The notes under the pieces were generated by a model that did not search any database, was not told the DNA's origin, and worked only from the letters and a program-made list of their open reading frames with translations. A stretch of 51,193 bases of DNA from positions 1 to 51,193 of the forward strand of contig CAIJKV010000276.1 of the NCBI GenBank assembly GCA_903821335.1, given 5' to 3'. Source of the stretch: an uncultured beta proteobacterium (GTDB lineage Bacteria; Pseudomonadota; Gammaproteobacteria; Burkholderiales; Burkholderiaceae_B). How positions within the stretch are numbered: position 1 is the stretch's first letter; each line of letters opens with the position of its first letter. The translations under genes and the position numbers were made by a program. Shown piece by piece: positions 18,758-50,357 of the stretch.

Positions 18758-20068
18758 CTACTGTCGCCCTTGCGCGTCAATCCGTTCAATGTCGGCGCGT
18801 CGCCAGATCAACAGGAACAGACCAGGCATCGCGATCACAACCGTGAACAGGAAAAAGGTGGGCCAGCCAGCGTATTCGACCATAGGCGGTGTTAAGGGAC
18901 CCGCCAGGTAGGTACGCCCCACCGCCGATAGCGCCGACAACAACGCAAACTGCGTCGCTGAAAACTGCTGGTTGCACAGCCCCATCAGCAGAGCCACGAA
19001 CGCGGCGGTTCCCATGCCACCGCACAGGTTTTCAAGGCCTACGCCGAAAGCCATTAGAAACACGCTGTGCGGCCCCACGGAGATCAGCCAGAACCCGAGG
19101 TTGGATACGGCCTGCAATAGACCAAACAGCAATAATGAACGATAGAGGCCCAAGCGGGTCATCAGCGTGCCGCCGGCAAGCGCGCCCACTATCGTGGCAG
19201 CCAGTCCCAGCAGTTTGTTGACGGTTCCCACCTGTGTGGCCGTAAACCCTGCTGCGCGAATCAGGAAAGTGGTCGACAACGCGCCAGCGAAAGCATCCCC
19301 GAGCTTGTACAGCACGATCAGCAACAGCACCGTCAGGGCTTCGGGGCGACCGAAGAACTCTTTGAACGGCTCAATGACCGCGAGGGCCAGGGAGCGCGGC
19401 GGTTTGGCTGGCACTTCGGGCTCAGGTGCCCAGAGTGTGGCCAGTGAAGTCAGCAACATCAGGCCCCCCATCAAGAAGTACATGCCTGCCCAGCCCAGCC
19501 ACTGATCTGCCAGGATCAGCGCCAGACCACCCGACACCAGCATGGCCAGACGATAGCCAAGTACGGATAAGGCCGCGCCAGCGCCGCGCTCTTCCTTGTG
19601 CAGCACGTCGCTTCGATAGGCATCAAACGCAATATCTTGCGTGGCCGAGCAAAACGCCACGACGACCGCCAGCATCGCCAGTGGCAACAACCCCGTGGCG
19701 GGCGAAAACGTACCCATCCCGACCAGCCCCAGCGCCAGCAACACCTGCATCAACAACACCCACCCACGCCGACGACCCAGCCATGGCGGAGCAAACCGAT
19801 CGACCAGCGGCGCCCAGAGAAATTTCAGTGTGTAGGCCGTGCCCACCAGCGTCAGAAAGCCGATCTCCTGGAGTGAAACCTGTTCAATCGTTGCCCAGGC
19901 CTGCAACGTGCCGCCCGTCAAGGCCAGCGGCAGGCCACTTGCAAAGCCAAGCATCAGCAACGGTGCCACCCGGCGACGCGTGTAGAGCTGCATGGCGGGA
20001 ATGGCCTCAGGGGGGGCTACGCAAACGGGTGTGATGGCAGGCGGCAACGCCCGCTCGGGCGTCGTCAT
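18758..20068 (-). CDS. ampG: AmpG-family muropeptide permease
   Basis: An inner-membrane MFS transporter that imports GlcNAc-anhydroMurNAc peptides for cell-wall recycling. The 436-residue protein has about a dozen hydrophobic helices and the AmpG signatures LGFASGLPLALTGGTLQAW (near 35-55), the FLWAPLVDRF loop, and ATQDIAFDAYRSDVLHKEERGAGAA (near 150). The start at 20068 overlaps the metW stop by 4 bases (ATGA); a frame 21 codons longer runs into metW and is not needed. Co-transcription with metX-metW is inferred from the overlaps, although the functions are unrelated. AmpG activity can influence AmpR-type beta-lactamase signalling in species that carry it. Confidence 0.88.
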   Translation of the reverse strand: MTTPERALPPAITPVCVAPPEAIPAMQLYTRRRVAPLLMLGFASGLPLALTGGTLQAWATIEQVSLQEIGFLTLVGTAYTLKFLWAPLVDRFAPPWLGRRRGWVLLMQVLLALGLVGMGTFSPATGLLPLAMLAVVVAFCSATQDIAFDAYRSDVLHKEERGAGAALSVLGYRLAMLVSGGLALILADQWLGWAGMYFLMGGLMLLTSLATLWAPEPEVPAKPPRSLALAVIEPFKEFFGRPEALTVLLLIVLYKLGDAFAGALSTTFLIRAAGFTATQVGTVNKLLGLAATIVGALAGGTLMTRLGLYRSLLLFGLLQAVSNLGFWLISVGPHSVFLMAFGVGLENLCGGMGTAAFVALLMGLCNQQFSATQFALLSALSAVGRTYLAGPLTPPMVEYAGWPTFFLFTVVIAMPGLFLLIWRRADIERIDAQGRQ

Positions 20069-20709
20069 GTTGCAGACACAGCACCGGGCGCGCCAGCCGT
20101 CACACGGTATACCGCCAGCGTGCTGCGCCATTGTGCCAGCCAGTGGACCTCGTGCGCATCATTGAAGGTTGCCCGCTCAATGATGCGCAAGCCCAGTTTG
20201 CTGGCAAGGCGCTCGAAATCAAGTAGCGTACACAGGTGGATATTTGGCGTGTCATACCAGTCATAAGGCATCTGTCCGGTGACCGGCATGCGACCGCGCA
20301 AGATCGACCAGCCATGCGGCCAATAGCCAAAATTCGGGAACGACACGACGGCCTGGCGCGACACGCGCACCATTTCACGCAGGATGTGTTCAGTGTTATG
20401 CATCGATTGCAATGTCTGGGACAGCACGACGGTATCAAACTGCTGGTCGTCGAACATCGCCAGGCCATCTTCCAGGTTTTGCTGAATAACGTGCACATCG
20501 CGCTGCACACAGGTCAGGACGCGCGCATCACTGATTTCCACGCCTATACCCTTGACGCCCAGTGTCTGCCTCAAATACGCCAGCAGGGTACCGTCGCCGC
20601 AGCCCAGATCCAGCACGCGGCTGTCCGGTGTAATCCACTGGGCGATTCGCGCCAGATCTTGCCTGAGGTGCGTCGGTTGATGCGGTGCAAAATGCGTCTG
20701 AGTCGTCAT
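20065..20709 (-). CDS. metW: methionine biosynthesis protein MetW
   Basis: A SAM-dependent methyltransferase-fold protein of 214 residues that is almost always encoded beside metX in Proteobacteria and is needed for, or stimulates, homoserine acylation in several species. The SAM-binding loop [17 protein letters not shown] lies at about residues 34-50. The later [25 protein letters not shown] block is diagnostic of MetW. Start and stop codons overlap metX and ampG by 4 bases each. Whether it truly methylates anything is not known from sequence. Confidence 0.93.
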
Positions 20710-21935
20710 GCTGACGCCCTCGCAACCGGATCCACTGATCGCAACGTGGCCGCGATACGCACGAAATAGGCGCGCATCAGGTTGTGATACCGCGTGTCGT
20801 CAAGCAAAAAAGCGTCGTGCCCATGCGGGGCGTCAATTTCGGCATAGGTAGCGGGCTGACCGTTCTTGAGTAGTGTGCGCACGATTTCGCGCGACCTTGC
20901 TGGCGGGAATCTCCAGTCAGTCGTAAAAGAGACCAGCAGGAAATCAGCCGTGGCCGGTGCCAGCGCACGCTCCATGTCACCATCGGTTTCACGGGCGGGA
21001 TCAAAATAATCCAGCGCGCGCGTGATCAGCAAATAGGTATTGGCGTCGAAATAGCGAGAAAACTTTTCACCCTGGTAACGCAAATACGATTCGACCTCAA
21101 ATTCGACCCCGTAACCATAGTGGAAGGCGCCCCCGGCTGCGGGCTCGCGTTGCGTGCGGCCAAATTTTTCCGCCATATCGTCGTCAGACAGATAGGTGAT
21201 ATGCCCCACCATGCGCGCCACCGACAGACCGTGACGCGGCACCGTATTGTGCGCGTAATAATCACCCCCATGAAATTCGGGGTCGGTAATAATCGCGCGC
21301 CTGGCGACCTCGTTGAAAGCAATATTCTGGGCCGACAATCGCGGGGTGCTGGCAATTACCACGCAGTGCGCGACGCGTTCTGGGCAGGTAATCGCCCAGC
21401 TTAGGGCCTGCATACCGCCCAGGGACCCCCCCATGACAGCCGCAAAACGCCAGATACCCAGCCGATCGGCCACGCGCGCTTGCGCCAGAACCCAGTCCTC
21501 AACTGTCAGCACGGGAAATGCTGCCCCCCAGGGTCTGCCCGTTTCGGGACGAATCGAGGCTGGTCCGGTCGAACCGAAGCACGACCCCGGGTTGTTGACA
21601 CCAATCACAAAAAAAACGTCGGTGTCGACGGGCTTGCCTGGCCCCACCATGTTGTCCCACCAGCCAATGTCGTCGGGATTATCGGCAGACACGCCCGCCA
21701 CATGATGCGAGGCGTTCAGCGCATGGCAGATCAGGACCGCGTTGCTGGCGTCAGCATTCAGGGTGCCGTAGGTCTCGATGGCCAGCGCATAGGCGTCCAG
21801 TGTCTGACCGCTGGCCAACGGCAAGGGCTCGTTGAACGGCAGGAATAACGTGCGAACGACCCCTACCGAACTGCCTGTGGCAGCCTGAGGGGCAATCGGA
21901 ACTGGTGCGTCCATCTGATCGGACGAAGTGGTCAT
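20706..21935 (-). CDS. metX: homoserine O-acyltransferase MetX
   Basis: Acylates L-homoserine in the first committed step to methionine. The 409-residue alpha/beta hydrolase has the nucleophile Ser171 in [11 protein letters not shown], the oxyanion segment [17 protein letters not shown] (112-128), and the C-terminal acid and histidine in [13 protein letters not shown] and [13 protein letters not shown]. The start at 21935 is supported by an AGAGG element 5-6 nt upstream that is also the 3' end of a riboswitch-like leader. A 53-codon longer frame would consume that leader and should be rejected. MetX enzymes use acetyl- or succinyl-CoA; the acyl donor cannot be fixed here without structure-based residue comparison. 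Confidence 0.94.
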
Positions 21936-21940
21936 ACGGA

Positions 21941-22010
21941 CCTCTTTAGCGGGATTTATGAGGCGCCCGCAAGCAGACCTAGGGATGTCATCTCTAGCAA
22001 ATCGGCGCCA
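21941..22010 (-). promoter_or_regulatory. probable SAM-II type riboswitch upstream of metX
   Basis: The metX leader contains, in order on the minus strand, the conserved core elements of the SAM-II pseudoknot: a GC stem strand GGCGCC followed by GATTTG, then TTGC just before the second stem strand GGCGCC, then CATAAAT, and finally GCTAAAGAGG. The two GGCGCC strands (22004-22009 and 21962-21967) pair perfectly. The terminal GAGG is the metX Shine-Dalgarno, 5-6 nt before the ATG, so SAM binding would hide it and block translation. The loop carries an extra small hairpin (CTAG ends at 21976-21996). A weak promoter pair (TGGCAC/AGTTTA as read on the plus strand, 22044-22049 and 22022-22027, 16-bp spacer) would start the RNA just before it. 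Pattern matched by eye; a covariance-model search was not possible. Confidence 0.65.
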
Positions 22011-22029
22011 ACTGAGCGTGAAGTTTAGC

Positions 22030-22322
22030 ATTTCGAAGCGGTCTGGCACCGCGGACCGGCTAACCGGATATGTTGTTACCGATGTGACAAGCACTGAAAC
22101 AAATGAACCTGCAAATAGGTGATTTTTTTACGCCATCCAGCGCCGACCCCGACGCAAACCAGCATGGACGCAAGCTGGAACAACAGCGGCACACCAAACA
22201 CCCAGCATCCCGTCACGTCAGAGGTCTGGTTACATCACAGGGATTTTGCGAATTTTCAGATTCGAAATATGCATTCAAACTAGGCATATTCTGGTCAGCA
22301 CACGCTGGGGAGTACTCAATCA
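22030..22322. other. non-coding gap between metX leader and luxR-type gene
   Basis: About 290 bp without a supported gene. It holds the presumed metX promoter on the left and, on the right, the leader of the small HTH gene with a GGGGAG element 10 nt before its ATG. A TTGCGA / TATGCA pair with a 16-bp spacer (near 22244-22271, plus strand) is a possible promoter for that gene. The stretch is more A+T-rich than its surroundings, and no repeats stand out. Confidence 0.4.
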
Positions 22323-24753: not shown

Positions 24754-24828
24754 TGGTGCGCCCGACAGGAATCGAACCTGTATCGAAAGCTTCGGAAACT
24801 CTTATTCTATCCATTGAACTACGGGCGC
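24754..24828 (-). tRNA. tRNA-Arg (anticodon CCG)
   Basis: A complete cloverleaf of 75 nt including an encoded CCA. The acceptor stem GCGCCCG pairs with CGGGCGC, the T-arm is ACAGG-TTCGATT-CCTGT, and the anticodon loop TTCCGAA carries CCG, reading the CGG arginine codon. The anticodon stem contains two G-U pairs. The discriminator base is A. It is antisense to and just downstream of gshA. Confidence 0.93.
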
Positions 24829-50281: not shown

Positions 50282-50357
50282 GGCCTGGTAGCTCAGTCGG
50301 TAGAGCAGAGGATTGAAAATCCTTGTGTCGGTGGTTCGATTCCGCCCCGGGCCACCA
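50282..50357 (+). tRNA. tRNA-Phe (anticodon GAA)
   Basis: A complete 76-nt cloverleaf with encoded CCA. The acceptor GGCCTGG pairs with CCGGGCC (one T-G), the anticodon stem-loop GGATTGAAAATCC has GAA, and the T-loop is TTCGATT. It is followed by a strong intrinsic terminator, so it is a single-gene transcript. Confidence 0.96.

Follow-up and report, generated by a model that had tools for sequence, protein, structure and literature searches.

A SAM-II riboswitch upstream of metX with a probably lineage-specific insertion in its loop

We identified the metX leader of the window (the whole 51,193-nucleotide stretch of DNA analyzed here, from an uncultured beta-proteobacterium) as a SAM-II riboswitch, an identification that is secure as sequence homology. 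The overall reading, to which we give a probability of roughly 85%, is that a SAM-II riboswitch lies near the 5' end of the metXW mRNA and carries a lineage-specific, tolerated loop insertion. All the named SAM-II motifs were found at positions 21935-22011 of the minus strand, in the order that the original prediction had given for them. Toward the gene, the order of elements is P1 GGCGCC, GATTTG, a long loop, GCTTGCG, P1 GGCGCC, TCATAAATCCC, GCTAAAGAGGTCCGT, and the metX ATG (21935-21933), with a spacing of five bases between AGAGG and this start codon (Table 1).

Table 1. Parts of the SAM-II element and neighboring genes in the window
Feature	Position	Strand	Basis or remark
P1 5' strand GGCGCC	22004..22009	minus	Pairs 6/6 with 21962-21967; RF00521 and family-model alignments
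L1 GATTTG, part of the SAM-pocket strand in SAM-II	21998..22003	minus	Invariant in 62 family leaders
Stretch CTAGAGATGACATCCCTAG between GATTTG and the P2a region	21997-21979	minus	Read from sequence
CTAG	21994-21997	minus	With the insertion, possible weak hairpin
15-base insertion AGATGACATCCCTAG	21979..21993	minus	3 bases there in 99/100 other family loci, 4 in one
P2a 5' strand GGTCT	21975..21979	minus	Pairs with 21939-21943: G-C, G.U, U.G, C-G, U-A
P2b 5' strand CTTGC (TTGC 21972-21969)	21969..21973	minus	GCTTGC invariant in 62 family leaders
P1 3' strand GGCGCC	21962..21967	minus	Sequence; RF00521 and family-model alignments
L3 TCATAAATCCC, A-rich	21951..21961	minus	11 nt, as in 87/100 other family loci
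CATAAAT motif	21960-21954	minus	Read from sequence
P2b/P2a 3' strand GCTAAAGAGGTC, holding Shine-Dalgarno AGAGG 21941-21945	21939..21950	minus	GCTAAA (21945-21950) invariant in 62 family leaders
GCTAAAGAGG	21950-21941	minus	Read from sequence
metX, homoserine O-succinyltransferase, 409 aa	20706..21935	minus	NCBIfam NF047916, 650.1 bits (cut-off 560)
metW, overlapping the metX end (operon metXW)	20065..20709	minus	TIGR02081, 279.9 bits (cut-off 189.5)
Probable extended -10 element TGCTAAACT, 12 bases before P1	22022..22030	minus	Recurrent box in genus leaders

Identity of the metX leader

With cmscan, the leader matched RF00521 (SAM_alpha, that is, SAM-II) across its full model length, scoring 24.7 bits with an E-value of 0.0012 on 351 bases. 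This match is the best in its genome but falls short of Rfam's 36-bit gathering score, which is a database threshold and not a structural feature, so a standard Rfam run misses the element. The inserted bases are most likely the cause of this low score. Across the 3.99-Mb genome the leader ranked first for RF00521 (E 0.00335), followed by a runner-up of 16.7 bits, and none of 14 control genomes had a match at E ≤ 0.01, while all 14 had one at E ≤ 10. A covariance model built from 62 distinct family leaders, with the window excluded and P1 as its sole stem, scored the leader at 62.8 bits, with an E-value of 1.3e-16 in the window (such E-values are rough); genome-wide, the metX leader was its only strong match (E 1.0e-14; second match 18.2 bits). 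The core is common to leaders of the genus and the family, and a protein of MetX length was identified downstream in 57 of the 59 leaders tried.

SAM-II and SAM-V are described as having a common fold and many similar ligand contacts (PMC2704228), and the original prediction had proposed a comparison with the SAM-V model RF01826. That the element is SAM-V or another pseudoknotted SAM class instead of SAM-II has a vanishingly small probability: when all Rfam families were run against positions 21850-22200, RF00521 was the only one reported at E ≤ 10, with RF01826 absent from the matches, and 27 of the 32 genus genomes exceed the RF00521 cut-off. Elsewhere in the window, two tRNA genes (24757-24828, minus strand, and 50282-50354, plus strand) were the sole Rfam matches over cut-off.

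Closely similar leaders were found in the genus. Those of L041, L058, and L065 share P1, GATTTG, GCTTGCG, L3, and GCTAAAGA(A)GGTC immediately ahead of the metX start. They differ from the window in lacking its 15 extra bases between L1 and P2a and in having GATCC where the window has GGTCT, and most genus members have one more A before GGTC than the window does. The founding example of the class, the Agrobacterium metA element, likewise combines one stem with one pseudoknot ahead of a methionine gene and was proposed to be an off switch (PMC1273637).

Promoter and predicted mode of control

A consensus promoter scan found no promoter in the leader region. A box of the form TGNTA[AG]A[AC]T was present 11 or 12 bases ahead of P1 in all 30 genus leaders compared, and the metXW mRNA probably starts just before P1, a start position that has been described for SAM-II (PMC1273637).

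The element directly precedes the metX start within the operon metXW, which supports its proposed control of metX, and the Shine-Dalgarno sequence does lie inside the pseudoknot strand as predicted. P1, L1, P2b, L3, and the strand shared by P2a and the Shine-Dalgarno sequence follow one another up to the gene, leaving no room for a terminator, and none was found in the metX leader. We class the expression platform as translational. The window copy presumably binds SAM. Abundant SAM would be bound in the L1-P2b triplex, P2a would close over the Shine-Dalgarno AGAGG in the SAM-bound state, and translation of metXW would then fall, turning methionine synthesis down.

Extent and uniqueness of the insertion

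The 15 extra bases follow L1 and precede the P2a 5' strand, and the window runs GATTTG, CTAGAGATGACATCCCTA, GGTCT, GCTTGC with the P2a register kept; in relatives the P2a 5' strand is mostly GATCC or GATCT. The exact boundaries of the insertion are ambiguous because CTAG is repeated. The loop from GATTT to TTGC spans 26 nt in the window; among the 197 parsed loci, every one of the other 196 has 8-12 nt. The set is made up mostly of top-scoring RF00521 matches or matches picked by hand from those listed, and so biased toward short loops, with some near-copies among them and with a parsing script that favored short loops in ties. These 197 leaders are the 199 loci scanned minus L134 and L224, which did not parse; L002-L008 and L067-L093 had been omitted beforehand. 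In L102 and L202 it was the second, tandem copy that was parsed, and their first copies are also short-looped.

No second SAM-II with a long loop was found in pattern searches of the genome contigs and of 268 family genomes, searches that need exact conserved blocks, so that diverged copies escape, and in which the records closest to the window may be absent from the contig set. The sole exact-block match among the genome contigs, L073, has a second GATTTG upstream of P1 and no insert; it is the same sequence as the genus loci L059/L092 (22/22 60-mers in common). A looser pattern gave 19 matches in 18 of the family genomes, and P1 paired 6/6 at the matched GATTTG only in the window. Another of these matches, L082, pairs 5/6 in P1 and lacks the SAM-II L3, and the remaining ones, including a false match in L092, have 4 or fewer P1 pairs. 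Judged by eye among the RF00521 matches listed with at least 24.7 bits, the window match is the longest at 94, followed by one of 83; in the large groups, filtering was stricter and weak matches drop out.

A MetX tree was built from 57 proteins; of the 59 leaders tried, two were set aside because the protein was shorter than 300 residues or was not read. In this tree the window groups with its genus, weakly supported (84/71) and on a long branch, and the insertion is therefore assigned to the window's own branch only. Two genomes, G248 (no metX match) and G257 (a weak match of 33% identity), were left out of the comparison. A repeat or mobile origin of the insert was rejected, as the 19-mer occurs in a single copy in the genome, at its own site only, with up to 3 mismatches allowed.

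We consider the insertion most likely to be lineage-specific and tolerated, able to fold as a small hairpin and replacing the turn, and it probably costs some P2a stability. An assembly or sequencing artefact in the loop, with a true leader like those of the relatives, would fit a genome in 408 contigs, the failure to find the insert in a second genome, and the CTAG that flanks the insert on both sides. This explanation is very unlikely, however: next to the insert the P2a strand carries a substitution as well, the sequence runs on unbroken on either side with metX intact, and the single occurrence of the 19-mer shows that it is not a mis-joined repeat.

Folding of the insertion and stability of P2a

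The original prediction had described a CTAG-ended hairpin in the loop. The 15 extra bases are plain on the contig, but the structure itself is weak: CTAGAGATGACATCCCTAG folds with seven pairs, one A.C mismatch, and a three-base loop at -2.8 kcal/mol, and equal stability was reached by 15/200 dinucleotide shuffles; among 5000 shuffled inserts the share was 10%, and among 5000 random 15-mers it was 19%. Because shuffled and random sequences so often fold equally well, we regard a selected hairpin as possible rather than demonstrated. Placed on the published SAM-II fold, in which P2a holds the Shine-Dalgarno sequence and L1 forms a triplex with P2b (PMC12434664, PMC5352136), a hairpin at the L1/P2a site would replace the three-base turn and leave L1, P2b, P1, and L3 untouched. 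Base 21979 is claimed by both its closing pair and P2a.

Five standard pairs are possible in P2a (GGUCU with AGGUC), two of them adjacent G.U wobbles that result from the A-to-G change. The calculated energy of P2a is +0.8 kcal/mol in the window versus -2.8 for GAUCU and -2.2 for GAUCC, and that of the whole P2 is -2.3 kcal/mol versus -3.7 to -5.5 in relatives. The P2a strand pairs of the family were tabulated, the alignment having misplaced the extra A of the genus. The lowest-energy nested fold of the leader, at -20.1 kcal/mol by energies that exclude pseudoknots, pairs the bases AGAGAU of the insert with GGUCUGCU, and this pairing competes with both P2 strands. An RNA with two disrupted P2 pairs lost its response to SAM (PMC1273637), and a weak P2a in the window could for this reason mean a weak switch.

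These features raise the question of whether the switch is decaying, with the insertion and the A-to-G change having crippled it so that P2a no longer closes and metX is left on. The positive P2a energy, the presence of the insert in one genome only among those searched, and the sequestering of GGUCUGCU in the nested fold all point that way. Decay would, however, be expected to leave changes scattered through the element; L1, P2b, and L3 are identical to those of many genus relatives, and the five standard P2a pairs that remain include the U-A pair of the GATCT members. We find decay rather unlikely. The insert could instead be a tuning element: without SAM, AGAGAU, which resembles the Shine-Dalgarno strand, would pair with GGUCU(GCU) and form an anti-pseudoknot helix that raises the SAM level for repression. 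The fold with the AGAGAU pairing has a lower energy (-20.1 kcal/mol) than those of four relatives (-15.7 to -17.1), and pairing probability over GGUC is 0.12-0.92 in the window versus 0.03-0.11 over GAUC in the relative L041. Yet leaders with shuffled inserts were more stable on average (mean -22.8 kcal/mol; 92.5% of 2000 had equal or lower energy), so that nothing marks the AGAGAU pairing as selected, and the insert is without a homologue for covariation. We hold this tuning role to be quite improbable.

Covariation cannot test the insert because no examined relative has it. A doubtful extension of the preferred reading, that of a tolerated insertion in a SAM-II riboswitch, is that the element gained a peripheral hairpin at the turn between L1 and P2a. 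By stacking on P2a or competing with it, this hairpin would shift the SAM level that hides the Shine-Dalgarno sequence. Such a hairpin would be the sole case among the loci examined here, and if this were true, SAM-II could accept modular insertions at that turn. At the insertion site one lineage has enlarged a small SAM aptamer, and the case offers a concrete test of what the L1/P2a turn can tolerate.

Distribution of SAM-II and its expression platform

The presence of SAM-II in a probable Alcaligenaceae genome had been put forward as noteworthy, a view that our counts do not bear out. At the database cut-off, RF00521 matched 186 of the 268 family genomes, and its occurrence in beta-proteobacteria is already in print: Bordetella SAM-II was listed in 2005, with Bordetella bronchiseptica in the legend of the founding alignment (PMC1273637), terminator-linked SAM-II is described from alpha- and beta-proteobacteria (PMC2258182), and SAM-II from Alpha-, Beta-, and Gammaproteobacteria (PMC2704228). 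Being common in the genus and family as well, the instance as such is ordinary for the family, and the unusual part is the loop. Two genera of the family, g23 (16 genomes, G142-G157) and g22 (8 genomes, G134-G141), had no RF00521 match better than E 0.1. Further out, 184 of 399 sampled genomes of the order (69 over cut-off) and 94 of 398 of the phylum (69 over cut-off) match at E ≤ 0.01. All counts are restricted to the cut-off or to E ≤ 0.01, as at E ≤ 1 or 0.6, respectively, 7 and 6 of the 14 control genomes also match.

Using a simple script, we identified a terminator after SAM-II in only 1 of 101 family loci. In other families of the order 68 loci were tried, with a terminator in 58 of 67; in the rest of the phylum 30 were tried, with one in 24 of 29, and these loci are probably alphaproteobacterial by their sequence type. 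Of the 58 terminators, 21 contain a run of 7 or more bases that complements the aptamer, a count made without a chance control, and such a run is likely to be an antiterminator. Many members of the founding SAM-II set also have a putative terminator after P2 (PMC1273637), whereas the window has none. Across the loci compared, the absence of the terminator is a family trait, and the platform appears to have changed between this family and the other families of the order. This contrast within a single order, with the family's SAM-II placed over the ribosome site and the others mostly linked to terminators, matters more widely than the window itself.

Relation to the metXZ element

A new element, metXZ, has been described before metX and metZ in beta-proteobacteria, including 3/3 Alcaligenaceae genomes (PMC4239095). 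In it, regions 1x4 and 2x6 form a pseudoknot, regions 3 and 4 are GC-rich, and a terminator follows; its ligand was given as unknown, and the same source reports SAM_alpha only in Rhizobiales and Rhodobacterales (PMC4239095). The window's element resembles metXZ in its place in a metX/metZ leader, its pseudoknot, its GC-rich regions, and its presence in Alcaligenaceae, and it differs in that metXZ is described with a terminator (PMC4239095), a part also missing in the Alcaligenaceae-type loci here.

Set against metXZ by description only, SAM-II with a terminator is very probably what the orphan element is, hitherto unrecognized as such. At 30 order-level SAM-II loci, the longest ORF starting within 800 bases downstream was MetX in 10 by blastp, two of these from the window's family. 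Four other order-level loci had N-terminal pieces matching models for O-succinylhomoserine sulfhydrylase (metZ), a cystathionine gamma-synthase family protein, metK, and metH, each piece being 60 residues, so that the scores lie far below whole-protein cut-offs. We found no statement equating metXZ with SAM-II in searches of an open-licence library. If the two are the same, an orphan element gains a ligand. The loci drawn on for this comparison were L094-L123 and L194-L233, mostly from the order level.

Tandem arrangements

An enlarged SAM-II arrangement is known from the Pelagibacter tandem of SAM-II and SAM-V (PMC11508383), which adds a second aptamer, whereas the window has bases inserted in a loop. 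Among the loci compared here, two SAM-II-like elements in tandem, with a terminator-like hairpin after the first, were identified in L237 (G538), L238 (G467), and L239 (G583), the last by eye as the script did not parse it. They precede a small ORF of unknown function beginning M[FY]DC, of 114, 102, and 109 aa, respectively, which could possibly be a double-gated, uncharacterized SAM-II target. In L237 and L239 an ORF further downstream is presumably a MATE transporter. L102 (G474) also has SAM-II in tandem, one copy with a terminator and a second, of the GATTTA...ACTTGC type, about 100 nt further on, followed by an ORF that we take to be a Sel1/TPR-repeat protein.
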